A stretch of DNA of 64,000 nucleotides, taken from contig CALFPA010000051.1 in the NCBI GenBank assembly GCA_937919825.1, positions 1 to 64,000 of the forward strand, given 5' to 3'. Position numbers and translations under genes: made by a program. The stretch's first letter is position 1. Every line of letters begins with the position of its first letter. The DNA comes from an uncultured Spartobacteria bacterium (GTDB lineage Bacteria; Verrucomicrobiota; Verrucomicrobiia; Chthoniobacterales; Terrimicrobiaceae). The notes beneath the pieces are model-generated. The model was not told where the DNA came from, searched no databases, and was given only the letters and a program-made list of their open reading frames with translations. Below are positions 2,305 through 60,971 of this stretch, one piece after another.

Positions 2305-3633
2305 TTATTTTCTATTGGCCTCTTCGAAAATCTCGCGCCAGTGGGCGAGGCGTTCCTTGATGCGTTTTTCGAGGCCGTTCTCGGTGGGTTCGAAATAGCA
2401 CCGTCCCTCGGGCAGGTAGGCTTGGGGCACATAGGAACCCTCGAAGTCATGACTGTAAAGGTAGCCCTTGCCATGGCCGAGGCGCTCGGAGCCTTTGTAG
2501 TGGCCGTCGCGGAGATGTTCGGGGACGGCGAGTGTGCGGCCTTCGCGCACCTCTGCCGAGGCTTTACCGATGGCCATGGTGGCGCTGTTGCTTTTCGGCG
2601 CGGTGGCGAGATAGAGCGTCGCGTGGGCGAGGAGGAGATTCGCCTCCGGCAGGCCGATGAACTCCACCGCCTGCGCAGCAGCCTGGGCGACGACGAGTGC
2701 GTTGGAGTCCGCCAGGCCGATGTCCTCACTGGCGCAAATCACCAACCGCCGTGTGATGAAGCGCACCTCCTCGCCGGCGTGGAGCATCTTCGCGAGCCAG
2801 TAAATGGCGGCGTCGGGGTCGCTGCCGCGGATGCTTTTAATAAACGCGCTGATCGTGTCGTAGTGCGCGTCGCCCGTGCCGTCGTAGACCACGGCCTTGC
2901 GCTGGATGCTCTCTTGCGCGGCTTCAAGGTCGATCCGCACTGCGCCATCGGAGCTGGGCGGCGTGGTCAGTGCCGCGATTTCGAGGGCGTTCAGGCATTT
3001 TCTCGCATCGCCATCGGCCAGCCTGGCCAAAAAGGCCGCCGCGTCAGGCTCGATGATATTTTTTTGTTTCCCGAGACCCCGCCCCGCATCAGCTAAAGCG
3101 CGGTGGATCAGCACGAGCAAATCGGATTCCTCGAGTGAACGGAGTTCGAAAATCTGCGAACGCGAGACGAGCGCGCTGTTGATGCTGAAAAGCGGATTCT
3201 GCGTTGTCGCGCCGATCAATCGCACCACGCCGCTCTCGACCTCGGGGAGGAGCACATCCTGCTGGGCTTTGTTGAAGCGGTGGATTTCGTCGATGAAGAG
3301 AATTGTCCGGACGCCATTCGCGCGGCGTTGCGCGGCCTGAGCCACCACGCGGCGGATGTCGGCCACATTGCTCTCGACGCCGCTCAGACTCTCGAATTTC
3401 GAGCAGGTCGCGCCGGCGATGATTTTCGCGAGGGTGGTTTTTCCGGTTCCCGGCGGGCCGAACAAAATCAGCGAGGAAATCCTGTCGGCCTCAATGGCGC
3501 GGCGAAGAAGTTTTCCCGGTCCGAGGATGTGGGTTTGGCCGACATATTCCTCCAACGACTCCGGGCGCATTCGAGTGGAAAGCGGGGCGTCGCTCAAGGT
3601 GTCTGCGGGTTTTTGCTGAAAAAAATCCTCCAT
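2305..3633 (-). CDS. rarA: Replication-associated recombination protein A (AAA+ ATPase, RarA/MgsA)
   Basis: 442 residues from the ATG at 3633 (MEDFFQQ); an in-frame ATG at 3657 would add eight residues, but GGGAGAG precedes 3633, though at a long 13-nt spacing. It has the family's N-terminus, Walker A GPPGTGKTT (about residues 59-67), Walker B FIDEIHRFNKAQQD, a sensor-1 GATTQNP and the long C-terminal oligomerisation part. RarA is a clamp-loader-like ATPase acting at stalled or gapped replication forks. Length and motifs are standard (about 440-450 residues). It is transcribed away from the pyr cluster and no operon partner is visible. Confidence 0.93.
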   Translation of the reverse strand: MEDFFQQKPADTLSDAPLSTRMRPESLEEYVGQTHILGPGKLLRRAIEADRISSLILFGPPGTGKTTLAKIIAGATCSKFESLSGVESNVADIRRVVAQAAQRRANGVRTILFIDEIHRFNKAQQDVLLPEVESGVVRLIGATTQNPLFSINSALVSRSQIFELRSLEESDLLVLIHRALADAGRGLGKQKNIIEPDAAAFLARLADGDARKCLNALEIAALTTPPSSDGAVRIDLEAAQESIQRKAVVYDGTGDAHYDTISAFIKSIRGSDPDAAIYWLAKMLHAGEEVRFITRRLVICASEDIGLADSNALVVAQAAAQAVEFIGLPEANLLLAHATLYLATAPKSNSATMAIGKASAEVREGRTLAVPEHLRDGHYKGSERLGHGKGYLYSHDFEGSYVPQAYLPEGRCYFEPTENGLEKRIKERLAHWREIFEEANRK

Positions 3634-5592: not shown

Positions 5593-5670
5593 CAGGAGGG
5601 CGCTGCTTGTCAGAGCCGGAGCGGTTCCCGCAAACACATCAGCCCGGCGCTGACAAGCAGCGCCCTCCTG
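5593..5670. repeat. REP-like foldback element between pyrB and pyrC
   Basis: A 21-bp perfect inverted repeat: arms 5593-5613 (CAGGAGGGCGCTGCTTG..) and 5650-5670. After one mismatch each arm extends by GCCGG, giving about 27 paired bases around a ~24-nt loop. The element lies 26 nt after the pyrB stop and 59 nt before the pyrC ATG. There is no T-run after it. The GGAGGGC-type tip resembles intergenic palindromes that recur in verrucomicrobial genomes. In the transcript it would form a very stable hairpin inside the operon, possibly separating pyrB from pyrC expression. Confidence 0.75.
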
Positions 5671-5729: not shown

Positions 5730-7004
5730 ATGAAAATCACCCGCATCGCCAACGGCCGAATCATCGATCCCGCCAACCAACGCAACGAAGTCGCTGACCT
5801 CTGGCTTGCCGATGGCAAAATTATCGCGCCCCAGCCTGGCACCGAAACCGAGACGATCGATGCCACCCATCTTGTTGTCGCTCCCGGCCTCATCGACATC
5901 CATGTCCACCTCCGCGAACCGGGGCAGTCGCACAAGGAAACCATTGCGAGCGCCACCCGTGCCGCTGCGGCCGGAGGTTTCACCTCGGTCGTGGCCATGC
6001 CGAACACCTCACCGACCGCCGATAGCGCGGCGACGATTGCCTGGATCAAAGACAAAGCCGCGCGCACGGCTTGCGTGAATGTCTTCACCACTGGGGCGAT
6101 CACCAAGGGGCTCAAGGGCGAGGAACTCGCGCCCTACGGCTCGTTGTTTAACGCTGGGGTCGTCGCGCTCACCGACGATGGGCATTGTGTGCAGAACCAC
6201 GAAGTCATGCGCCGTGCGGTCGAATACGCCAAAATGTTCGGCCTCGTCGTGATGGATCATTGCCAGGATTATTCGCTCGTCGGCGACGGCATCATGCACG
6301 AGGGCGAGTGGAGCCTCCGCCTCGGCCTGCCCGGTTGGCCTCGCGCAGGCGAGGAAATGATCGTCGCCCGCAACATCCTCCTCGCCGAACTTCTCGACTC
6401 ACCCATCCACTGCCAGCACATCAGCTCCGGCGGGAGTGTGCGGCTCCTCCGCGAAGCCCGTGCGCGGGGCGTGAAAATTTCTGGCGAAGTTTGCCCTCAC
6501 CATATCGCGCTCACCGACGCGGAGCTCGCCGCGTTCGACAGCAATTTCAAAATGAATCCGCCGTTGCGCGCCGAGGCCGACATCGAGGCCATTATCGAAG
6601 GCATCGCCGACGGCACGCTCACGATTCTCTGCAGCGACCACGCCCCGCACGCCGCCTACGAGAAGGAGGTCGAGATCGACCACGCGCCCTTCGGTATCAC
6701 CGGCCTCGAAAACGAATTCGCCACATTCCATGACATCCTCGTTCACAAACGACGCGTCATCGACCTTCCGCGCCTCATCGCGCTCTATACCTCCGAGCCA
6801 GCCAGACTCCTGAAGCTCGATCGCGGCACCCTCTCACCCGGTGTGCCGGCCGACATCACGCTGATCGACCCGAATCTCGACTGGACCTTCGATAAAACCA
6901 CCTCGCTTTCGTTGTCGAAAAACACACCCTTCCACGGCCACACTTGGCGCGGCCGCGCGGTGCGCACCATCGTTTCCGGTGAGACGGTGTGGAGTCTTTC
7001 GTGA
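5730..7004 (+). CDS. pyrC: Dihydroorotase
   Basis: 424 residues from the ATG at 5730. The reading frame stays open upstream to 5535, but that part translates the repeat elements and has no family similarity, so the internal ATG (MKITRIANGR) is chosen. Metal-site motif DIHVHLREPGQ (H58, H60), an AMPNT block, NPPLR and SDHAPH identify the type-I dihydroorotase/allantoinase family. The enzyme cyclises carbamoyl aspartate to dihydroorotate, the step after PyrB. No good Shine-Dalgarno is visible because the 35-nt repeat abuts the start codon. Clustering with pyrR and pyrB supports an active dihydroorotase rather than a PyrC-like pseudoenzyme, and the metal-ligand motifs are intact. Confidence 0.93.
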   Translation: MKITRIANGRIIDPANQRNEVADLWLADGKIIAPQPGTETETIDATHLVVAPGLIDIHVHLREPGQSHKETIASATRAAAAGGFTSVVAMPNTSPTADSAATIAWIKDKAARTACVNVFTTGAITKGLKGEELAPYGSLFNAGVVALTDDGHCVQNHEVMRRAVEYAKMFGLVVMDHCQDYSLVGDGIMHEGEWSLRLGLPGWPRAGEEMIVARNILLAELLDSPIHCQHISSGGSVRLLREARARGVKISGEVCPHHIALTDAELAAFDSNFKMNPPLRAEADIEAIIEGIADGTLTILCSDHAPHAAYEKEVEIDHAPFGITGLENEFATFHDILVHKRRVIDLPRLIALYTSEPARLLKLDRGTLSPGVPADITLIDPNLDWTFDKTTSLSLSKNTPFHGHTWRGRAVRTIVSGETVWSLS

Positions 7005-7057
7005 ACGGATTTTACATTCCACGCCGCTGAGACCATGTTTCCCAAACTTTTGAACGA

Positions 7058-7990
7058 ATGAACCCGATGCTCCGTTCCTTTCTAGCAATCTCCTTTGCGT
7101 TTCTGATTTTGCCCGGCATGGCCCCCGCCAAGGCCCAACTCCCGGTTCGACCGACTGAGGGGGTAGCGCCTGCCGTTTTTCCTGATCCTACCAATTCTTC
7201 TCAAGCCCCCCAGCCTTCCGCCGTGGCCACTCCCCCCGTGCCCGCGCCTCCTCCCGCTCCGCGCAAGCTGAGCTACAACAGCTGCAATGTGGAGGGACCG
7301 TATGTGGCGATCACTTTCGATGATGGACCGCATCCCAAGCTGACGCCCCGTCTGCTCGACATGCTCAACGAGAGGGGACTCAAAGCCACCTTCTATGTGA
7401 TCGGCCAGAATGTCGTGCAGTATCCCGAAATCATGCAGCGGATGGTTGCGGAGGGCCATGAGATCGGGAACCACAGCTACACACACCCCGCCCTCAGCAA
7501 ATGCAGCCCTGCCAAGTTGACCGAGGAAATCACCAAATCCAACGACGCGATTTTACAAGCCTGCGGCGTGAGTCCTACGACGGTCCGCCCACCCTACGGA
7601 GCGACGAATGCCGCTGTTACAAAACGCCTCAACGACGAATTTGGCCTCGCAGTCATTATGTGGTCGGTGGATCCTCAAGACTGGAAAATCCGCAAGGCCT
7701 CCCATGTCTCGAACCACATCCTCCAAAATACCAAGCCAGGTGGAATCCTTCTCGCCCACGACATTCATCCTTCCACCATTGACGCCATGCCCGCCGTGCT
7801 AGATGGACTCCTCTCGAAGGGATACCAATTCGTCACCGTCTCGGAATTGATTGCGATGGATCGTCCGTCAGGCCCTGGAGTTCCGGCTACACCTGGAGTT
7901 GGAGCGGGTCCTGTGACCATTCGAGGGCCAGGTGTTCCTGCCAATCCCGTTTCCTACGAATCCACGCCCGTTTCCTCGCCCAGCCCGTAG
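7058..7990 (+). CDS. Secreted polysaccharide deacetylase (NodB domain, CE4)
   Basis: 310 residues. A signal peptide (cleavage near residue 26, AKA-Q) is followed by a Pro-rich linker (to ~70), a NodB domain (~75-265) and a Pro/Gly/Ser-rich tail. The CE4 motifs are complete: TFDDGPH (86-92), the HSYTH metal pair (139-143), RPPYG, VDPQDW and LAHDIH. The family removes N- or O-acetyl groups from peptidoglycan or exopolysaccharides outside the cytoplasmic membrane. It could act on the wall or on an exopolysaccharide of the kind made by the 40-kb cluster; the substrate cannot be read. The sensor-kinase gene starts 6 nt after the stop, so the two may be co-transcribed. Confidence 0.88.
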   Translation: MNPMLRSFLAISFAFLILPGMAPAKAQLPVRPTEGVAPAVFPDPTNSSQAPQPSAVATPPVPAPPPAPRKLSYNSCNVEGPYVAITFDDGPHPKLTPRLLDMLNERGLKATFYVIGQNVVQYPEIMQRMVAEGHEIGNHSYTHPALSKCSPAKLTEEITKSNDAILQACGVSPTTVRPPYGATNAAVTKRLNDEFGLAVIMWSVDPQDWKIRKASHVSNHILQNTKPGGILLAHDIHPSTIDAMPAVLDGLLSKGYQFVTVSELIAMDRPSGPGVPATPGVGAGPVTIRGPGVPANPVSYESTPVSSPSP

Positions 7991-7995
7991 TTTTT

Positions 7996-10488
7996 ATGAA
8001 AATCCCCCCTCTGCCGGATTCAGAAAAAGAACGGCTTGCCTCTCTTTACGAGCTGGAGCTTCTGGATACCAAGAGTGAGGATGTGTATGATGAAATTACG
8101 AAGCTGGCATCCATCCTTTGCGGCACTCCCATAGCAGCTATTTCATTGATAGATACAGATCGCCAATGGTTTAAAAGCATTACAGGCCTGAGTGTTTCCG
8201 AAACAGCCCGGGATATTTCTTTTTGTGGGCACACCATTTTGGGGGATGATTTGATGGAAGTCTCCAATGCGTGCATGGATGAGCGGTTTTCTGACAACCC
8301 ATTGGTTCTGCAAGACCCTCAGATTCGTTTTTATGCGGGAATGCCGCTGAAAATTGATGACAAGCATAACATTGGATCGCTCTGTGTTATTGATAGAATA
8401 CCTAAAAAACTTACGAATGAGCAAAAAGAGGGTTTGAAGGCCCTGGCTCATTTGCTCACAAAGAGTCTGGAGCAGCGCAGTTTGTTTAAAGCGCACATGG
8501 AGTTGCGTCGTGAGATCGCCAACAAGACGGCCGTGAACGACGCGATTGTCTCGAATGCGGGCACGGCAATTATTTCAACGGATCTGGAGGGGGTTGTCGT
8601 GACCTTCAATCCCACAGCCGAGGAGATTCTGGGGTATTCTTCTGCCGAGATGGTCGGCAAGTTCACGCCGGCCCTATGGCATGATGAGGAAGAGGTTCTG
8701 CAGGAGGCGGAATCCCTATCGAAAAAATATGGGGAGACTGTAAGCCCCGGTTTTCAAACCTTTGTCAGACCTCTGCAGGAGGTTAAGCTTTACGCCAAGG
8801 AATGGACCTATATCCGCAAGGATGGAACCCGCATTCCTGTGATGCTCAAAGTATCCACCCTCCTGACCGCGGAAGGCGAGGCGATTGGTTATTTAGGAGT
8901 GGCCCGGGATATCACCAGTGAAAAGAAGGCGGCCCGGCTTTTAGAGTCCAATGTGATGATCTCGAAAATGGCCCAGCGGTGCCAAGAGGCGTTTATCACT
9001 GGGCAACCGGCGAGTATTTTCTTCAATCAATTGCTAAATGATTTGCTGAATTTTACCGGGAGTGAATACGGCTTCATCGGGGAGACGCTTAATGATGACG
9101 ATGGCCCCTACCTCCGGACCTACAGCATCACCGATATTTCTTGGAGCGAGGAAACCAAGAAACTCTATGAAGAATATCGCCAGAAGGGTTTTGTTTTTAA
9201 AAACCATAAAACACTTTTCGGGGTGGCTTTAGTTACCCAAGAGGTGGTGATCAGCAATGATCCGGCCAACGACCCTCGGAGGGGCGGTCTACCCCACGGA
9301 CATCCGCCAATGAGGTCTTTCCTGGGAATGCCCTGTCGATTCGGTGGGAATATGGTCGGCTTGGTCGGAATTGCCAACAGGCCAGGCGGATACAGCATGG
9401 AATTGGTCACGGAGCTCGAGCCTCTGCTGAATGCGATTGGCGCGCTCATCGAGGCCTTGCGACTCTCTCAAAGCCGTGAAACGACGAGACAATCGCTGGC
9501 CGCCGAGAAAGACAGGTTCCAGAAAATATTAATGTCCTCAAAAACACCGATTGTGGAATCCACAGACTGCGGACTTGTCGCGGAATGGAATGCCTCGGCG
9601 GTGGAGACCTTTGGGGTCAGTGCGGCGGAAGCCGTTGGGAACAAGATGACGAACCTCTTTGTGCTTCGGGATGCGCAAGGCCACGAAGGGGGGCTGATTC
9701 AGCATTTCCAAAGGCAGGAGGATTTCTCTGCGGACGGAAAGGAATTAACGATTATCCGTAGGGATGGCACGCATTTTCCAGCCCAAGTGATTGCCTGGAA
9801 GGTGGCTCACGAAACATCTCACAGCGTGTGTGCGTTCATTCGGGATATGACAGCGCGCTATGATTTGGAAGCGCAGCAACGAAAGCGCTTTGAGTCGGAG
9901 ACGATGCTCAAGGAAATCCACCACCGGGTGAAGAACAACATGCAGGTGATTTCGAGCTTGCTGAGCCTCCAATCCGCGCACATGGATCCGAGTCAGCGTG
10001 GGGTTTTCATGGAGTGCCGGGATCGCATTCGTGCCATGTCGTTGATTCATGAAAAGCTTTATACCACCGGCCAATTTGGAGCGATTGATTTTGGTGAATA
10101 CCTGCGCGAGATGGTCACCCTTGTGAGTTCCTCGAACAAGCCGGCGGATACCGAGATAGACTACGACATCCAGGTGGAGTCTATTGAGGTATCTCTAGAT
10201 CAAGCGGTTCCGCTCTCGCTGATCGCGAGCGAATTGATTCTGAATTCGATGAAGCATGCATTTCACGATCGGGCCAAGGGGTTGATCATTGTTCGTCTGC
10301 ACCGGGAAGACGGGGTCTGTCGTTTATTTATCGGGGACGACGGGCCTGGGATCCCGCCCGAAGAGCATCGGGTCAATAGCCAAAGCATCGGCATGAAGCT
10401 GATCGATGGATTGTCCAAGCAAATCCGGGCCCAGTTGGAAAAATATCCCGGCCCCGGTGCCGGTCTGACGGTTCGTTGGAAATTATGA
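7996..10488 (+). CDS. Cytosolic multi-sensor histidine kinase (GAF-PAS-GAF-PAS-HisKA_2-HATPase)
   Basis: 830 residues with no membrane segment. Domains by eye: GAF (~20-165, with the SFCGHTI pattern common in such GAFs), PAS (~175-310), a second GAF (~315-490), a second PAS (~510-635), then the HisKA_2 block EIHHRVKNNMQ (phosphoacceptor His at 642 or 643), and an HATPase domain with SELILNSMKHAF and GDDGPGIP. This is the HisKA_2/HWE-like class, which often signals to response regulators lacking DNA-binding domains. Its stop overlaps the start of the REC-GGDEF gene (ATGA), so it very likely phosphorylates that protein and controls c-di-GMP. Ligands of the sensor domains are unknown. Base composition is more AT-rich than the flanking pyr genes. 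Confidence 0.9.
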   Translation: MKIPPLPDSEKERLASLYELELLDTKSEDVYDEITKLASILCGTPIAAISLIDTDRQWFKSITGLSVSETARDISFCGHTILGDDLMEVSNACMDERFSDNPLVLQDPQIRFYAGMPLKIDDKHNIGSLCVIDRIPKKLTNEQKEGLKALAHLLTKSLEQRSLFKAHMELRREIANKTAVNDAIVSNAGTAIISTDLEGVVVTFNPTAEEILGYSSAEMVGKFTPALWHDEEEVLQEAESLSKKYGETVSPGFQTFVRPLQEVKLYAKEWTYIRKDGTRIPVMLKVSTLLTAEGEAIGYLGVARDITSEKKAARLLESNVMISKMAQRCQEAFITGQPASIFFNQLLNDLLNFTGSEYGFIGETLNDDDGPYLRTYSITDISWSEETKKLYEEYRQKGFVFKNHKTLFGVALVTQEVVISNDPANDPRRGGLPHGHPPMRSFLGMPCRFGGNMVGLVGIANRPGGYSMELVTELEPLLNAIGALIEALRLSQSRETTRQSLAAEKDRFQKILMSSKTPIVESTDCGLVAEWNASAVETFGVSAAEAVGNKMTNLFVLRDAQGHEGGLIQHFQRQEDFSADGKELTIIRRDGTHFPAQVIAWKVAHETSHSVCAFIRDMTARYDLEAQQRKRFESETMLKEIHHRVKNNMQVISSLLSLQSAHMDPSQRGVFMECRDRIRAMSLIHEKLYTTGQFGAIDFGEYLREMVTLVSSSNKPADTEIDYDIQVESIEVSLDQAVPLSLIASELILNSMKHAFHDRAKGLIIVRLHREDGVCRLFIGDDGPGIPPEEHRVNSQSIGMKLIDGLSKQIRAQLEKYPGPGAGLTVRWKL

Positions 10489-11426
10489 GCAGTAGCCAAA
10501 AAGACACGCGCTTGAAAATCTTGATTGTGGAAGATGAGTCGATCACGGCTTTGGATATTTCCGTTGAACTGACCCAAATTGGATATGAGGTCTGTGGCAT
10601 GGAAGACACGGCGAGCGGTGCCATCGCCGCCGTTCTAGAGAATAAGCCAGACTTGATCTTGATGGATATTCGACTGGGGGATGGGGGGGATGGCGTGGAA
10701 GCCGCCAAGCAAATCCTCCGCGATCATGATCTTCCTATTGTTTTTCTCACCGCCCACTCGGATGGCCAGACATTGTCCCGGGCTTTGGATGTCTCGCCTT
10801 ATGGTTATCTTGTGAAGCCATTTCGAACGCAGGACTTGAGGGTCACCATTGAGTTGGCCATTTCCAAGCACTCTGCTGACAAGGCAAAAGAACAAGAGAA
10901 ATCTCAAGAGGCACTCACGGATCCATTGACTGGATTGGGGAACCGTCGGTGTTTTGATGAAACCCTCACGCGCGAGTGGCTTCGCTCGGAAAGAGAGATT
11001 CAGCCGATGGCTCTCATAATGGTCGATATAGACCATTTCAAAGCGTTTAACGACACTTATGGCCATGCGCGTGGGGATGAATGCTTGCATGCGGTGGCAG
11101 AGGCCTTGAAAAGCTGCTGTAACCGGCCGGGGGATCTTGTTTGTCGATGGGGAGGGGAGGAGTTTGCCGTGATCCTGACCCGGACGGATTTGTCTGGAGC
11201 CAATAAAGTGGGCCTTGCTTTGATTGAGGCGGTGGAGGCGCTTGGCATCACCCATTCGGGATCCTCTACCGCGCCGCATGTCACAATTTCCGCCGGGGCG
11301 GCTTCCACGGCGATGGGAGTGGAATCGCAAAATTTACTGCTCAAGCAAGCCGATGAGGCTCTTTATAAAGCCAAAAAATCTGGCCGCAATCGCTTGATTT
11401 TGGCTGATTCTACCGGGCTCGATTGA
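10485..11426 (+). CDS. Response regulator with GGDEF output (diguanylate cyclase)
   Basis: 313 residues from the ATG at 10485, which overlaps the kinase stop by 4 nt; a start at 10476 is less likely. The REC domain (~8-125) has the acidic pocket VEDES, the phospho-Asp in LMDIRLGD and a conserved Lys in VKPF. The GGDEF domain (~140-305) has DPLTGLGNRR, the metal-binding VDIDHFKAFND and the active-site WGGEEF. RPGD five residues before GGEEF fits the allosteric I-site (RxxD). All catalytic positions are present, so it should make c-di-GMP from two GTP when activated by the adjoining kinase. The last bases of the gene form the left arm of the foldback repeat at 11425-11595. Confidence 0.92.
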   Translation: MSSSQKDTRLKILIVEDESITALDISVELTQIGYEVCGMEDTASGAIAAVLENKPDLILMDIRLGDGGDGVEAAKQILRDHDLPIVFLTAHSDGQTLSRALDVSPYGYLVKPFRTQDLRVTIELAISKHSADKAKEQEKSQEALTDPLTGLGNRRCFDETLTREWLRSEREIQPMALIMVDIDHFKAFNDTYGHARGDECLHAVAEALKSCCNRPGDLVCRWGGEEFAVILTRTDLSGANKVGLALIEAVEALGITHSGSSTAPHVTISAGAASTAMGVESQNLLLKQADEALYKAKKSGRNRLILADSTGLD

Positions 11427-11595
11427 AGCACCTTTCGGCCGCATCCGAATGGGTAGGGTCGGCTCGCCGTAGCGGACCCAAGATTCAGGCGCACGGCGCC
11501 GTGAAAGGTGGAAAGCCGGGTGTGGGCCGCCTTCGGCGGCACAAAATGGGACGGCTCGGCGAGCCATCCCTACCTTGGTTTTCGAAAGGTGCTTC
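11425..11595. repeat. 171-nt foldback element between convergent genes
   Basis: Outer arms 11425-11437 (GAAGCACCTTTCG) and 11583-11595 are perfect 13-bp inverted repeats. Inner arms 11452-11469 and 11557-11574 match at 16 of 18 positions and contain GGTAGGG and GGCTCGCCG. A small hairpin (GCCGCC-TTC-GGCGGC) sits inside. The element overlaps the stop of the diguanylate cyclase gene and the last codons of the convergent gene at 11570. It contains ATTCAGGCGCACGGCGCCG (11483-11501), nearly repeated at 52421-52440. It looks like a REP/MITE-like palindrome and may act as a bidirectional terminator. No transposase is encoded. Confidence 0.75.
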
Positions 11596-12319
11596 CGCGC
11601 CACAGGATCGCCGCAACCGAGTCCGGGGGAGTTTGCAGCTTGGGAGCGGGCCGCTGCGCGGCGAGTTTCAACGCCACTTGATCCAGGGCGGTTTGGAGTC
11701 GCCGGTCTCCGGGTCGCAGGGAGCGGGCGGTTTGGATTTCGTCAGCAGCAGCGGAGTTTTCCTGGAGAGCCACCAGCACTCGGGCGAGTTCCAAGCGCAG
11801 CAGCGGTTCGTCGGCTTTCTGGCCGATCAACTCCCGCAGGATGGCTTTTGCTTCTTCTGGAGAGCCGGACCAATAGAGTTCCCGCGCGTATTGCAAGCGG
11901 TCGGCAGGCTGTTCGGCCGGAGGAGCCTGGGCAGGTCGCTTGGCTGGCCCGGGTGCCACGCCGTTTTCCACGCCGAGCTCGTGTCGCAAATGCCTGAGGG
12001 CGGCTTGCACAGCGGTTGGATCCTGCGAGTTGGGCAAAGCCGCCTCGAACAATTCGACGGTCTTTTGGTCATGGTAGCCGGCGAGATAGTTTTGCCAGGC
12101 GGTGTATTCGGCCAGACCCGGCAAGTTCGGTTCCTGGCGGTAAGCCTCCTCGAGTTTTTCAAAGGCCATCGAGATTTTCATCTCCCGGGTGTCCGAGATC
12201 GCCTGCTCAAACAGGGCGGAGGAGGTTTCGCATAGGACTCCTGCGGTCTGACACAAAAATGCGAGGGCAAGAAGGTGGAGGCGGGAGCTGAAGGTGTATT
12301 TTACGAGGAAGGCTTTCAT
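11570..12319 (-). CDS. Secreted helical-repeat (TPR-like) protein, unknown function
   Basis: 249 residues. The N-terminus has a signal peptide (hydrophobic ~12-26, Cys-containing, cleavage before ETSSALF). The rest is Ala/Leu/Glu-rich helical repeat sequence resembling TPRs in two blocks (~30-95 and ~140-225), separated by a Pro/Ala linker near 125-140. No catalytic motif is visible; a periplasmic scaffold is the likely role. The final eight codons (RGSTFRKPR region) and the stop lie inside the foldback repeat, so the C-terminus is repeat-derived. The gene is followed downstream by the convergent diguanylate cyclase and preceded, same strand, by the HD-GYP gene 28 nt away, suggesting co-transcription. 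Confidence 0.65.
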   Translation of the reverse strand: MKAFLVKYTFSSRLHLLALAFLCQTAGVLCETSSALFEQAISDTREMKISMAFEKLEEAYRQEPNLPGLAEYTAWQNYLAGYHDQKTVELFEAALPNSQDPTAVQAALRHLRHELGVENGVAPGPAKRPAQAPPAEQPADRLQYARELYWSGSPEEAKAILRELIGQKADEPLLRLELARVLVALQENSAAADEIQTARSLRPGDRRLQTALDQVALKLAAQRPAPKLQTPPDSVAAILWRGSTFRKPR

Positions 12320-12347
12320 CGATCGAGGAACTCTCGGACGGGCTTTA

Positions 12348-13505
12348 TTATTGGAAGCGCTGAATGATTTTTACGGCCTCCGGCAGATTGTTTTTCAGGG
12401 CATCGACGCAAGCGGGATCGAGCTTCCCCTCGGCGGCCATGTGCTCGAGGTTATTTATTGCGTCCTCCGCACTCCAAGCGGCCTTGTAAACGCGCTTGCT
12501 GGTGAGCGCGTCGAAAATGTCTGCCACTGTGACGATGCGCGCCTCGATCGGTATGGCGGTGCCATTCACCCGGTGGGGATAGCCGCTGCCGTCGAGATAG
12601 TCATGGTGGTAGGCTACTAGGTTGCGGAGGATATCGATGCCATCCACTTGCCTAAGATTGAAGTCTTGGATGAGGCGTTCGATCATTCGGCTGCCGATCT
12701 CCACATGCGTCTCCATGGTCTTGCGCTCTTCCGGAGTGAATCCCCCGGGCTTGTGCAGCACGGCATCCGGGATGCCCACCTTTCCGATGTCGTGCATGGG
12801 CGCGAACAGGAAAAGCTGCTCGATGAACTCGTCGCTCAACTGGTGGCTGGCGGCCAGGGCTCGCGCGATCAAGCGGCAAAAGCGCGACATGCGGTCCAGA
12901 TGCCCGCCGGTCTCCTCATCGCGCAGGTCGCTGATATCACGAGCCAACTGCAACGAACTCAACATCGCGCGAAAGCTCGACATCTCGCGGCTGAAGAGAA
13001 CCATGATCAGGCTGATGTAGACCTCCAGCCCGCTCCGCATTTCGGGCGTGAAGGTGCCTTTTTCTTGCGAATCCAGAAAAAGAAACCCCTCGAATGTATC
13101 GCGGTAAAACACCGGCAGGGTGTAGGAGGAGCGATACCCCATTTGCTTGATGTGGAGCGTGTGCTCCGTCTCCGCAGTGAGAGATTGTGGGATGTCGTCG
13201 ATCACGCGCTCACGCCTTTCCTCCTTGAGGCTGAGCAGGCTGGGGATACTCGAGAGTTTGCGCTGATAGGTGCTCAGAGTGTTCGTCTTCTCCGAGCTGT
13301 GGACAAATGTCTTCAGCAGATCCTCTTTGGGATCGTAGAGGGCAAAGCTGATGCGGTCTATCCCCGGAAACTTGCGGCGAAGGTGCGCGTGAATGCAGGC
13401 CAACCGCTCGGAAAAGCTTGCCGTGGAATTTCCTAAAAGTCCGGTTTCCGTATTGCTTTTGGGGGGGTGTTCTTGAAACACGACGCCACCTTGAGTCCGC
13501 TGCAT
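12348..13505 (-). CDS. HD-GYP domain protein with GAF sensor (c-di-GMP phosphodiesterase)
   Basis: 385 residues from the ATG at 13505; an in-frame ATG at 13568 would add 21 residues of poor character. The N-terminal half is GAF-like (~25-175). The C-terminal HD-GYP domain carries HDIGKVGIP (His near residue 236) and HHDYLDGSGYP (near 298-308), the latter a full HHExxDGxGYP-type motif with Asp for Glu at one place. The family hydrolyses c-di-GMP to pGpG or GMP. With a diguanylate cyclase 1 kb away, the locus holds both sides of c-di-GMP turnover. It is cytosolic, with no membrane segment. The gene is the likely first member of a two-gene minus-strand unit with the TPR-like gene. Confidence 0.87.
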   Translation of the reverse strand: MQRTQGGVVFQEHPPKSNTETGLLGNSTASFSERLACIHAHLRRKFPGIDRISFALYDPKEDLLKTFVHSSEKTNTLSTYQRKLSSIPSLLSLKEERRERVIDDIPQSLTAETEHTLHIKQMGYRSSYTLPVFYRDTFEGFLFLDSQEKGTFTPEMRSGLEVYISLIMVLFSREMSSFRAMLSSLQLARDISDLRDEETGGHLDRMSRFCRLIARALAASHQLSDEFIEQLFLFAPMHDIGKVGIPDAVLHKPGGFTPEERKTMETHVEIGSRMIERLIQDFNLRQVDGIDILRNLVAYHHDYLDGSGYPHRVNGTAIPIEARIVTVADIFDALTSKRVYKAAWSAEDAINNLEHMAAEGKLDPACVDALKNNLPEAVKIIQRFQ

Positions 13506-13586
13506 GCCAAACTCAATTTGAAAACCAACGATCCTTTCCGTCGCATTCGGGTGACGGCCAGAAAGCATGGGGCTCCCCGGGCGGAG

Positions 13587-14222
13587 TTACTTTTCCCCCT
13601 CGACGACTTCGGGGGCGACGGATTTGAGCGCGCGGTGGGCGGCTTGGGTGATCCACCAAGTCACCGCGATGGTGATCGCAATCTCGAGCGCATACACCGC
13701 CCACTCCCAAGGGCCTTGATGCAAACCGGCTTTCGTGGCTTTCCCGACAACGGAACCGCTGTAGGCATACGCTGCGCTGATGGGAAAAAAACCGATCCAA
13801 GATGCAAGTAGGAAGCGCCACGAACGGATGCGCGAAAGACCAAACGCGCAGCTCACGAGACTGTGCGGAAGGATCGGCGAGATGCGTGTCAGGATCACCA
13901 TGCGCCACGCGTCTTTCACCGCCACATGATTAAGGGCTTGGAATTTTTTGCTGCCCGCGAAACGGCGCTCCATCAGGCCTCGGAGGAGGAATCGCGCGGA
14001 GACGAAATTCGCCAGCGCACCGGCGACCGAGGCGAGTGAGACGAGAGCTGTGCCTCCCCAAAATCCATAGACCGCCCCCGCGCCGACGCTCAGCACCGAG
14101 CCTGGCAGAAAAAGCACGCACGAGAGCGTGTAGAGAACAACGAACCACACCCAGCCGACGGGCCCGGTCTGCTCGATCCACGCCATCGATTGGCGCATCC
14201 ACTCGGTCCATTGCTCGAGCAT
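13587..14222 (-). CDS. TVP38/TMEM64 (SNARE-associated/VTT) family membrane protein
   Basis: 211 residues with about five hydrophobic segments. The VTT-domain pattern is present: a re-entrant region LFLPGSVLSVGAGAVYGFWGG (split by conserved Gly), FLLRGLMERRF, then RISPILPHSLVSCAFGLSRI. The family sits in the inner membrane; its DedA relatives act as lipid-carrier or phospholipid scramblases/flippases, but the specific role of the TVP38 branch is uncertain. It stops 82 nt before the HD-GYP start on the same strand and begins 30 nt after the gatB stop. Confidence 0.82.
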   Translation of the reverse strand: MLEQWTEWMRQSMAWIEQTGPVGWVWFVVLYTLSCVLFLPGSVLSVGAGAVYGFWGGTALVSLASVAGALANFVSARFLLRGLMERRFAGSKKFQALNHVAVKDAWRMVILTRISPILPHSLVSCAFGLSRIRSWRFLLASWIGFFPISAAYAYSGSVVGKATKAGLHQGPWEWAVYALEIAITIAVTWWITQAAHRALKSVAPEVVEGEK

Positions 14223-14251
14223 TCAGCGGCGCTGGCTTGAGCCGTGTTGGG

Positions 14252-15706
14252 TCACGAGAGTTTCTTCTCCAAAATCTCCCCGGCGAGGGCGGGGTTGGCT
14301 TTGCCCTTGGAGAGTTTCATCACCTGGCCTTTGAGGAAATTCAGCGCCGAGACTTTGCCAGCCTTGAAATCAGCGGCGGGGCCGGGGTTGGCGGCGATGA
14401 CTTGGTCCACAAACACCTCGATGGCTCCGGTATCGCTTTCCTGTTTCAGGCCCTTTTCCTCGACGATGGTGGCGGCGGGTTTTCTGCTGGAGAACATCTC
14501 GGCGAAGACTTCCTTGCCCTGCTTGGAATTGATCGCGCCGGTGTCGATGAGGTTCACAAGTTCATCGAGCGCATGCGGCGGCACGGGGCAATCGGTGATG
14601 GCGAGCGAGGCCGCGCTGAGGGCGCTCTGAAGGTCGTTGAGAATCCAGTTTGCGACATTCTTGGGTTTCTTCGCGCCTTTGGCGGCCGTCTCAAAATACG
14701 AGGCGAGCGCGAGGTCGTTCGCCAACACAGCGGCGTCGTAGTCGCTCACGCCGAAGTCGGCAACGAAGCGCGCGCGTTTTTCCCAGGGCAACTCGGGTTT
14801 GCGGGCGCGGGCGGCTTCGACGAGCGAGGCGGTTTTGACCGGTAGGAGATCGGGGTCGGGGAAGTAGCGGTAGTCATGGGCGCTTTCCTTGATGCGCATG
14901 AGGGTGGTCTCGCCGCGGGTGTCGTCCCAACGGCGGGTTTCCTGCTGGAGGACCGCGCCACCGCGCAGGGCCTCGATCTGGCGGGGAATTTCAAAAGCCA
15001 GCGCGCGGCGGACGCCGGAGATGGAATTCAAATTTTTGACTTCGATCTTCGTGCCGAATTTTTCGGTGCCGACGGGGCGAACCGAGATATTCACATCGCA
15101 GCGGAGTTGGCCTTTTTCCATGTCGGCGTCGCTGATGCCGCCGTAGATCATCACTTGCTGGAGAACAGTAAGGTAGGCGAAGGCTTCTTCGGGCGAGGCG
15201 ATGTCAGCCTCTCCGACGATCTCCATCAGCGGCGTGCCGGCGCGGTTGAAGTCGATGCCGGTGGCAGTTTCCATGTGGAAGCTCTTCGCGACATCCTCCT
15301 CGAGGTGGATCCGGGTGAGGCGGGCTTTTTTGTCCTTCGTGGCGATGGTTTTCTGGGCGTCCTTCGGATAGGCGAGATCGTGGAGCGGGACGGCACCGCC
15401 GAGGCAGAGGGGCAGATCATATTGGCTGATCTGGTAGTTCTTCGGCATGTCGGGGTAGAAATAATTTTTGCGGTCGAACTTGCAGACCGGCCCGATCTCA
15501 CAGCCGAGCATGAGGCCGGCGAGCGCGGTGAGCTTGAGAGCCTCCTCGTTCATCACCGGCAACGCACCGGGCATTCCGAGGCAGACGGGGCAGACATTCG
15601 TATTCGGCTCGGCGCCGTATTCAACCGCGCAGGAGCAGAACATTTTGCTGCAGGTCTTGAGCTGGACATGGACTTCGAGGCCGATGGTGGCGATGTATTC
15701 GGTCAT
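14252..15706 (-). CDS. gatB: Asp-tRNA(Asn)/Glu-tRNA(Gln) amidotransferase subunit B
   Basis: 484 residues, standard length. The start IGLEVHVQLKT, the zinc-site cysteines (MFCSCAVEYG and CPVCLGMPG), the DYRYFPDPDL motif and the C-terminal YqeY-like tail are all visible. GatB is the kinase-like subunit that activates misacylated Glu-tRNA(Gln) or Asp-tRNA(Asn); ammonia comes from GatA. gatA and gatC are not in the window, so the GatCAB genes are dispersed here. The start overlaps the stop of the upstream CvpA-like gene by 4 nt, in a run aroC-cvpA-gatB on the minus strand. Confidence 0.96.
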   Translation of the reverse strand: MTEYIATIGLEVHVQLKTCSKMFCSCAVEYGAEPNTNVCPVCLGMPGALPVMNEEALKLTALAGLMLGCEIGPVCKFDRKNYFYPDMPKNYQISQYDLPLCLGGAVPLHDLAYPKDAQKTIATKDKKARLTRIHLEEDVAKSFHMETATGIDFNRAGTPLMEIVGEADIASPEEAFAYLTVLQQVMIYGGISDADMEKGQLRCDVNISVRPVGTEKFGTKIEVKNLNSISGVRRALAFEIPRQIEALRGGAVLQQETRRWDDTRGETTLMRIKESAHDYRYFPDPDLLPVKTASLVEAARARKPELPWEKRARFVADFGVSDYDAAVLANDLALASYFETAAKGAKKPKNVANWILNDLQSALSAASLAITDCPVPPHALDELVNLIDTGAINSKQGKEVFAEMFSSRKPAATIVEEKGLKQESDTGAIEVFVDQVIAANPGPAADFKAGKVSALNFLKGQVMKLSKGKANPALAGEILEKKLS

Positions 15707-52360: not shown

Positions 52361-52667
52361 CCCGCCTCCAGGCGTCCCAGTCCGAAATCCTTGGAGGGCT
52401 GACCTCCGTGTCAGCCCAAAATTCAGGCGCAACCGCGCCGTTCTGCTTTCACCAAAACCTCCCGCCGAGCCGCCGAAGCGCAGAGAAAAACAAGAGGGGG
52501 GCGCGGCCGTCTCGACCGTAAAAGACACTGGCCCGCGAATAAGAAGAATTCTCACAAAAAGCCATGAAAGTTCCAAGACCAGGCGAAGCGAGGTTGGCTG
52601 AAAATCATTAAGCTTGGAGACTTTAGTATGAGCCCTCCCCTTGCGGGCTTGCCGAGCACCCTAGTGA
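52361..52667. other. Intergenic region between convergent ccsA and pyrD
   Basis: 307 nt with no credible gene. It holds the hairpin at 52396-52417, a copy of the ATTCAGGCGCA..GCGCCG motif (52421-52440) also found in the foldback element at 11425-11595, and, nearer pyrD, an AGCCC/GGGCT short stem without a T-run. The region probably carries 3' ends of both transcripts. Confidence 0.5.
52396..52417. repeat. Perfect hairpin repeat (GGGCTGAC/GTCAGCCC)
   Basis: Arms GGGCTGAC (52396-52403) and GTCAGCCC (52410-52417) with a 6-nt loop CTCCGT. GGAGGGCTGACCTCCGTGTC resembles the GGAGGGxxGACCTCCGTGTC palindromes scattered between genes in several verrucomicrobial genomes, and the 5' end of the foldback at 5593. 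It follows the ccsA stop by 35 nt, so it may help end that transcript. Confidence 0.6.
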
Positions 52668-60218: not shown

Positions 60219-60971
60219 TTGCCGAACCTCACTGATTTCACTGCTTTCCAATGGACCCTCGCCGCCCTTGCGGCGTTGGGACTCGGGATGAGCAAAAGCG
60301 GCTTCGGCGGCATGGCGATGGTTGGCATTCTCTTGATGGCCCAAATCATCCCAGCCCGCGAGTCCACTGGCGTGATCCTGCCGATGCTTATTCTGGCCGA
60401 TGTTTTCGCCGTGCGGGCCTTCCATCACCATGCGGTTTGGCGGGTGCTTTGGAGAATCATGCCCGCCGCTGTGGTTGGCGTGATTGTCGGATGGGTTGCG
60501 ATGCCGTTCATCCCAGCTGGTCTGTTCGCCCCGGTAATTGGATGGATTGTCACCGCCCTGCTCGGTCTGATGATTCTCCAAAAGTGCTCGCCACGTTTGC
60601 AGGAGATCGCGGCGGACCATCCAGCCATCGCCTGGCCGCTGGGCGTGCTTGCGGGGTTCACAACGATGATTGCCAACGCCGCTGGCGCGGTGATGACGAT
60701 CTACCTCCTCGCCTGCCGCCTCCCGAAATACGAATTCGTGGGCACAGCCGCATGGTTTTTCTTTTTGATCAATGTTTTCAAAATTCCCTTCAGCGCCTCG
60801 CTGGGTCTGATCACGCCGGAGACCCTGATCTTCAACGCCATGCTCGCTCCCGCTGTGATCCTCGGCGTTTTCGGGGGGCGAATCCTGCTCGGTAAAATCA
60901 ATCAGCAGGTCTTCGAATGGCTCCTGATCGCCATGGCCCTCGCCGGCAGCCTGCGACTCGCGCTCAGCTGA
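60219..60971 (+). CDS. TauE/SafE family inner-membrane transporter
   Basis: 250 residues from a TTG at 60219, five bases after the PEPCK-like stop. About seven or eight hydrophobic segments. The two family repeats appear as LGMSKSGFGGMAMVGILLM near 22 and the related GVLAGFTTMIANAAGAVMTIYLL near 145. The family exports sulfite, sulfoacetate or other small anions, and many members are uncharacterised. Likely co-transcribed with the PEPCK-like gene; a functional link is not obvious. It overlaps the ybeY 3' end by 8 nt on the opposite strand. Confidence 0.87.
   Translation: MPNLTDFTAFQWTLAALAALGLGMSKSGFGGMAMVGILLMAQIIPARESTGVILPMLILADVFAVRAFHHHAVWRVLWRIMPAAVVGVIVGWVAMPFIPAGLFAPVIGWIVTALLGLMILQKCSPRLQEIAADHPAIAWPLGVLAGFTTMIANAAGAVMTIYLLACRLPKYEFVGTAAWFFFLINVFKIPFSASLGLITPETLIFNAMLAPAVILGVFGGRILLGKINQQVFEWLLIAMALAGSLRLALS

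Follow-up and report, generated by a model that had tools for sequence, protein, structure and literature searches.

In the survey by Di Nocera et al. (2013; PMC3733652), passages on genomic position describe GTAG repeats located where genes converge, in most cases no more than 20 bp from the 3' ends in the genomes examined. The same survey describes repeats that supply TAG stop codons to flanking genes. It also describes head-to-head dimers of GTAG repeats and their association with RAYTs, reports abundance in a verrucomicrobium and includes Opitutus terrae among the hosts.

Here we analyzed a foldback at positions 11425-11595 of a 64,000-nucleotide stretch of DNA from an uncultured Spartobacteria bacterium, the whole of which is referred to as the window. 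Very probably, this foldback is a GTAG-family REP doublet (REPIN/BIME) that was moved by a RAYT and whose tag caps a truncated TPR gene. The features of the locus are as follows.

7996-13568: four-gene block (histidine kinase, cyclase, TPR and HD-domain genes) that surrounds the element.
10476-11426, plus strand: response-regulator/GGDEF cyclase (diguanylate cyclase) gene, 316 aa, the stop of which abuts the element.
11425-11437, plus strand: left outer arm, GAAGCACCTTTCG, which starts with the GA of the cyclase TGA.
11452-11501, plus strand: REP unit of B type, with GTAG at 11453-11456, the core hairpin, AAGATTCA and an inner hairpin at 11488-11500.
11502-11524, no strand: spacer separating the inverted units.
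11525-11574, minus strand: REP unit of A type, with GTAG at 11573-11570, the core hairpin at 11570-11548, a short T run and an inner hairpin at 11540-11526.
11583-11601: right outer arm (11583-11595) together with an outer mini-hairpin at about 11588-11601, resembling the flanks of several other units.
11570-12319, minus strand: TPR gene, 249 aa, with a coding score of 64; the gene is outside the training set of the score.

The 171-nt foldback reported in the preliminary description is real. The outer arms (11425-11437 and 11583-11595) are complementary at 13 of 13 positions, and a second, inner pair of 18-nt arms (11452-11469 and 11557-11574) is 89% complementary. When 11425-11595 was folded as RNA, the two strands gave z-scores of -5.37 and -6.12, and 0 of 200 shuffles folded as well. 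Folding of the plus strand as DNA gave a z-score of -5.99 against shuffles. The window has three places with perfect 13-bp inverted pairs no more than 200 nt apart. They amount to 11 pairs, nine of which belong to a single long arm at 5593-5670; in simulations, 20 windows contained a mean of 0.25 and a maximum of two such pairs. The foldback at 5593-5670, with perfect 21-bp arms (5593-5613 and 5650-5670), lies ahead of an amidohydrolase (dihydroorotase-like) gene that may start at 5730, and is another repeat candidate. Additionally, a perfect 13-bp inverted pair at 60448-60582 (60448-60460 and 60570-60582) lies within overlapping ORFs.

The arm sequence is not rare by itself, as allowing up to two mismatches yielded three matches versus 2.7 expected. 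The outer arms are the least typical part of the foldback, which is diagnosed by the two GTAG-hairpin units that they enclose. Because the 13-bp ends are inverted, they could be read as the terminal inverted repeats of an ordinary MITE belonging to a DDE insertion sequence. However, perfect 13-bp outer arms are absent from the other doublets displayed, and what the copies share is the GTAG-hairpin. In addition, units are found both solo and in doublets, and the transposase linked to them is of the Y1 RAYT type (see below). We consider an origin as a MITE extremely improbable, and a MITE with 13-bp ends was rejected because solo units occur without the arms.

Inside the arms, two GTAG-tagged REP units of 50 nt each, at 11452-11501 (plus strand) and 11525-11574 (minus strand), form a doublet that is of the head-to-head type in the nomenclature of the 2013 survey. 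In every unit of the family, a small second hairpin accompanies the GTAG core hairpin, and two types were defined by what follows the core: a AAGATTCA-like link and then a GGCGC hairpin in type B, a T-rich link and then a GGCGGC-type hairpin in type A. The window doublet pairs one unit of each type over 123 nt from tag to tag. The inverted doublet recurs as a unit, being seen in the window copy and in 11 other head-to-head doublets displayed, for which the tag-to-tag span is 105-117 nt in 10 and 161 nt in one. The tag is followed by an imperfect hairpin 20-40 nt long, as is characteristic of REPs, and reads GTAG in 21 and GCAG in two of 23 aligned units.

For more sensitive detection, a covariance model was built on 23 units, both window units among them. 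The B-type unit scored 66.1 bits (E 1e-10) and the A-type unit 51.4 bits (E 1.2e-7) against this model, each being part of its training set. In an alignment of 36 distinct rows fitted to the model, 94.3% of the stem cells are paired and seven of the 12 pairs have changed on both sides. The covariation score was 0.340, versus 0.121 for shuffled and at most 0.076 for slid alignments. Thus, the stems have been kept by compensatory changes. The window holds one further unit of the family, a weak one, at 52393-52440 (plus strand; 34.1 bits, E 5.4e-4). Its core stem differs (GGGCTGAC...GTCAGCCC) and GGAG replaces GTAG, while its AATTCAGGCGC link and inner hairpin resemble those of other units.

The preliminary description proposed a search for further copies, and these proved to be numerous. 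A DNA search of the same genome returned 23 matches, counting the window copy, and the covariance model (E ≤0.01) detected at least 43 units at 31 sites, a lower bound since 150 of 2331 candidates were scored. The genome therefore holds many dispersed copies, as is typical of REPs, and a single unit without a doublet is present at 21 of the 31 sites of this draft genome. The foldback lies between convergent genes, as first described, and so do 12 or 13 of the 31 sites. With a custom coding score, for which the window served as training sequence, we classified 13 sites as convergent, 11 as unidirectional and two as divergent, with five at contig edges. The gene caller missed the RAYT gene on contig 123; once that gene is counted, the site at 3040-3150 of this contig is unidirectional, which gives 12 convergent and 12 unidirectional sites. 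Either way, 24 of the 26 classifiable sites are convergent or unidirectional, indicating that the units are mainly extragenic and near 3' ends. Four sites in the genome overlap a called ORF, by 17-200 nt.

The foldback had also been proposed to act as a two-way terminator. A bidirectional intrinsic terminator that had evolved for this purpose at the convergent 3' ends would be in keeping with the gene arrangement, the very stable foldback and the short T run past the hairpin of the A-type unit (ATTTTGTG). This proposal was not upheld, as the foldback contains one intrinsic-type site, on the TPR side only, compared to 1.3 in shuffles. The T run is absent on the cyclase side, and units of the family are found at 31 sites in several gene orientations. 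We therefore regard a dedicated terminator as very unlikely. The intrinsic two-way form was rejected because a GC hairpin with a T run is present on one strand only and at a frequency not above that of shuffles. Attenuation or translational effects of the foldback are possible.

Beyond this genome, we scanned a total of 39 genomes, scoring 150 candidates in each (fewer in one). Units (E ≤0.001) were detected in 19 of the 39: the genome under study, 14 of the 15 others of its genus and four of the 23 outside the genus. A search of the named genome collection with the exact B-unit pattern found 22 loci in seven assemblies, all titled Verrucomicrobiota. The GTAG family was found mainly in one genus of Verrucomicrobia.

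The genome contains one Y1_Tnp match, which corresponds to the following gene.

Contig 123, 2496-2942, minus strand: RAYT, 148 aa (NF047646, REP_Tyr_transpos).

This protein scored 87.7 bits, above the NF047646 cut-off of 80. It carries an HVH motif and a tyrosine ahead of NPVRAGL, which we take to be its catalytic residues. REP units border the gene on both sides, as expected for the cognate RAYT. Among the best 20 RAYT loci of a longer list, six have units on both sides, three have weak units on one side and 11 have none. A tree was generated in which the six flanked loci were joined by the RAYT on contig 26 of genome G003, added because its coordinates show it to be flanked by units. The seven flanked RAYTs, from seven genomes, make up one side of a branch with support of 89/95 that is present in 90% of bootstrap trees, and 0 of 500 label shuffles scored as low. 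A tight one-to-one link between RAYTs and units is disfavored, since RAYT model matches occur in 35 of the 39 genomes (22 above the cut-off) versus units in 19. Counter-examples are G005, where two RAYT matches but no units were detected, and G013, which has two units but lacks a RAYT match. Taken together, the units, their dispersed copies and the clade of flanked RAYTs indicate that the foldback is a REPIN/BIME.

The suggestion of a mobile palindrome is thus supported, in that the foldback is a REP doublet and the same genome encodes its cognate RAYT; movement of the doublet is what we infer. The contig 123 RAYT is a candidate mobilizer of the window doublet, presumably through cleavage. At about 522400-525000 on contig 2 of G011, tandem arrays of doublets lie on both sides of a RAYT with the doublets approximately 173-175 nt apart, so the module amplified at that locus is about the length of the window foldback.

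Both flanking proteins were initially thought to end in repeat-derived DNA, and this is correct for the TPR protein but not for the cyclase. The left arm does overlap the cyclase stop, sharing two bases of the TGA at 11424-11426, but no residue upstream of the stop is encoded within the arm. The cyclase is complete, with all 161 profile positions of the GGDEF domain matched by residues 146-306 of 316. Among the relatives' loci listed, cyclases with 29-48% identity were found, none of them a clear orthologue. For the TPR gene, the TAG stop is formed by the last three bases of the GTAG tag (11573-11570), and the codons for WRGSTFRKPR, extending to about 11602, are in what appears to be the outer part of the element. 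Judged by likeness to other copies, the last nine to ten TPR residues appear to be element DNA, and this tail should not be annotated as conserved sequence.

The tag of a unit provides the TAG of a gene at two of the 31 sites in the genome, the TPR gene in the window and one other.

Contig 42, locus L146, 4525-5637, minus strand: AbiEii-type gene (Pfam: type IV toxin-antitoxin toxin) that ends on a REP tag.

The last ten residues of the AbiEii protein, GAAAPFENHW, are encoded by the same outer part of the element in another frame. Within the relatives' loci examined, one of 82 distinct units supplies a stop, and that unit is weak and has TTAG as its tag. Stop provision by the units is therefore rare.

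With 39% identity, the TPR protein aligns to the N-terminal ~220 residues of a 633-aa protein from G013 and lacks ~400 C-terminal residues of this best full-length homologue. Because the homologue is ~400 residues longer, truncation is likelier than a natural 3' end, and the sequence comparison indicates that the TPR gene has probably been cut short. The TPR protein likewise matches the N-terminal ~220 residues encoded by a copy of the long gene on contig 76 of its own genome. This copy is split between two frames; the split, at about 886-938 of the contig, reflects a frameshift or an assembly error. Overall, 25 of 117 genomes have a match, and the other 23 match solely in the TPR part (query residues 41-306). 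The long gene of G013 is accompanied by genes for a cellulose-synthase-like glycosyltransferase and a GGDEF-EAL protein, and the contig 76 copy likewise has a GGDEF-EAL gene after it. No relative of the TPR protein was confirmed in the named genome collection. A search of solved structures with the long homologue gave no match at E 0.01, so the terms barrel and outer-membrane for its C-terminal part are based on sequence reading and operon context.

In G003, the closest relative found, the counterparts of 6600-7884 (which ends in a polysaccharide deacetylase gene) and 13572-14600 (a VTT-domain gene and beyond) are on one contig, 43 bases apart. The four-gene block and the element are missing at this place. 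For the 14 remaining genomes of the genus, the matches listed (to about E 4e-5) are REP units and short kinase stretches, the latter in G005 and G012. An empty site for the palindrome itself was not found. Two further REP sites were compared with G003. At each, one flank adjoins a unit or doublet in G003 and the other matches a different contig, suggesting rearrangement at the repeats, albeit in draft assemblies.

These comparisons lend some weight to a different history, in which recombination between repeats or a deletion brought a TPR fragment next to the cyclase, with no insertion of the element as such. The ~400 residues that the TPR protein lacks, the absence of the four-gene block from its place in G003 and the split flanks at the two REP sites are all consistent with such a scar. 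However, the contigs are drafts and the sites compared were two. Moreover, TPR residues 215-239 aligned to the homologues no better than shuffles did (fractions as good, 0.59 and 0.86), and loss of the C-terminal part may therefore predate the element. We consider the rearrangement a credible possibility, though we lean against it.

In the preferred reading, that of a REP doublet moved by a RAYT, the contig 123 RAYT would recognize the GTAG tag and hairpin in single-stranded DNA and copy or move the doublet in trans, by analogy with the known family. The doublet would have landed between the cyclase and TPR genes at their 3' ends, or have come to join these ends. Its tag would have become the TPR stop, adding approximately ten element codons to a gene truncated earlier or at that time. 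With a strong foldback at the end of both convergent messages, 3' protection or attenuation of read-through might follow. Points against this reading are the failure to find an empty site, the uneven match between RAYTs and units across genomes, the many single-unit sites, the rarity of stop provision and the perfect outer arms, which the other doublets displayed do not share. REPs and translation are reportedly the subject of a study by Liang from 2015. In E. coli, REPs less than 16 nt from a stop codon stall ribosomes, according to work cited in a 2025 paper (PMC12306157). In the window, the RNA hairpin begins with the final base of the TPR stop and, by the E. coli rule, should slow ribosomes and lower TPR output.

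A mobile repeat of a known kind thus explains a striking foldback. Its GTAG REP family, together with the matching clade of RAYTs, is described here for a genus of uncultured Verrucomicrobia. The TPR and AbiEii genes provide two documented examples of protein ends derived from REPs, and one of the capped genes is probably a truncated relic. More speculatively, and on balance unlikely, REP doublets in this genus might serve as ready-made gene ends that, on inserting into broken genes or becoming joined to them, offer a stop, a short tail in more than one frame and a ribosome-slowing hairpin, by which a gene for an outer-membrane TPR-barrel export protein was turned into one for a short periplasmic TPR protein that has been kept.

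Among the publications searched, including the text of the 2013 survey, we found none that names the GTAG family of the window in this lineage. The window family resembles the families of that survey by description, as distinct from alignment to the 24 published consensus sequences (PMC3733652). As portrayed there, shared features include the tag, the hairpin, inverted dimers, structured spacers and a RAYT between units, as well as placement between convergent or same-direction genes and tags that give TAG stops. In contrast to the GTAG families as that text describes them, units of the window family bear a second, inner hairpin past the core. With REPINs, as outlined by Bertels and Rainey (2011; PMC3116915), the window family has in common the inverted REP doublet as a unit and tandem clusters beside RAYTs, but it differs from that outline in showing a single unit at 21 of 31 draft-genome sites. 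The position of a RAYT between inverted REPs and the dispersal of the repeats are likewise found in BIME/RAYT systems, in the descriptions given by Nunvar et al. (2010; PMC2817692) and in a 2018 survey of HUH enzymes (PMC6006769). Thus, the window family adds a member to a known kind of repeat, and its gene-ending behavior is of a type already described.
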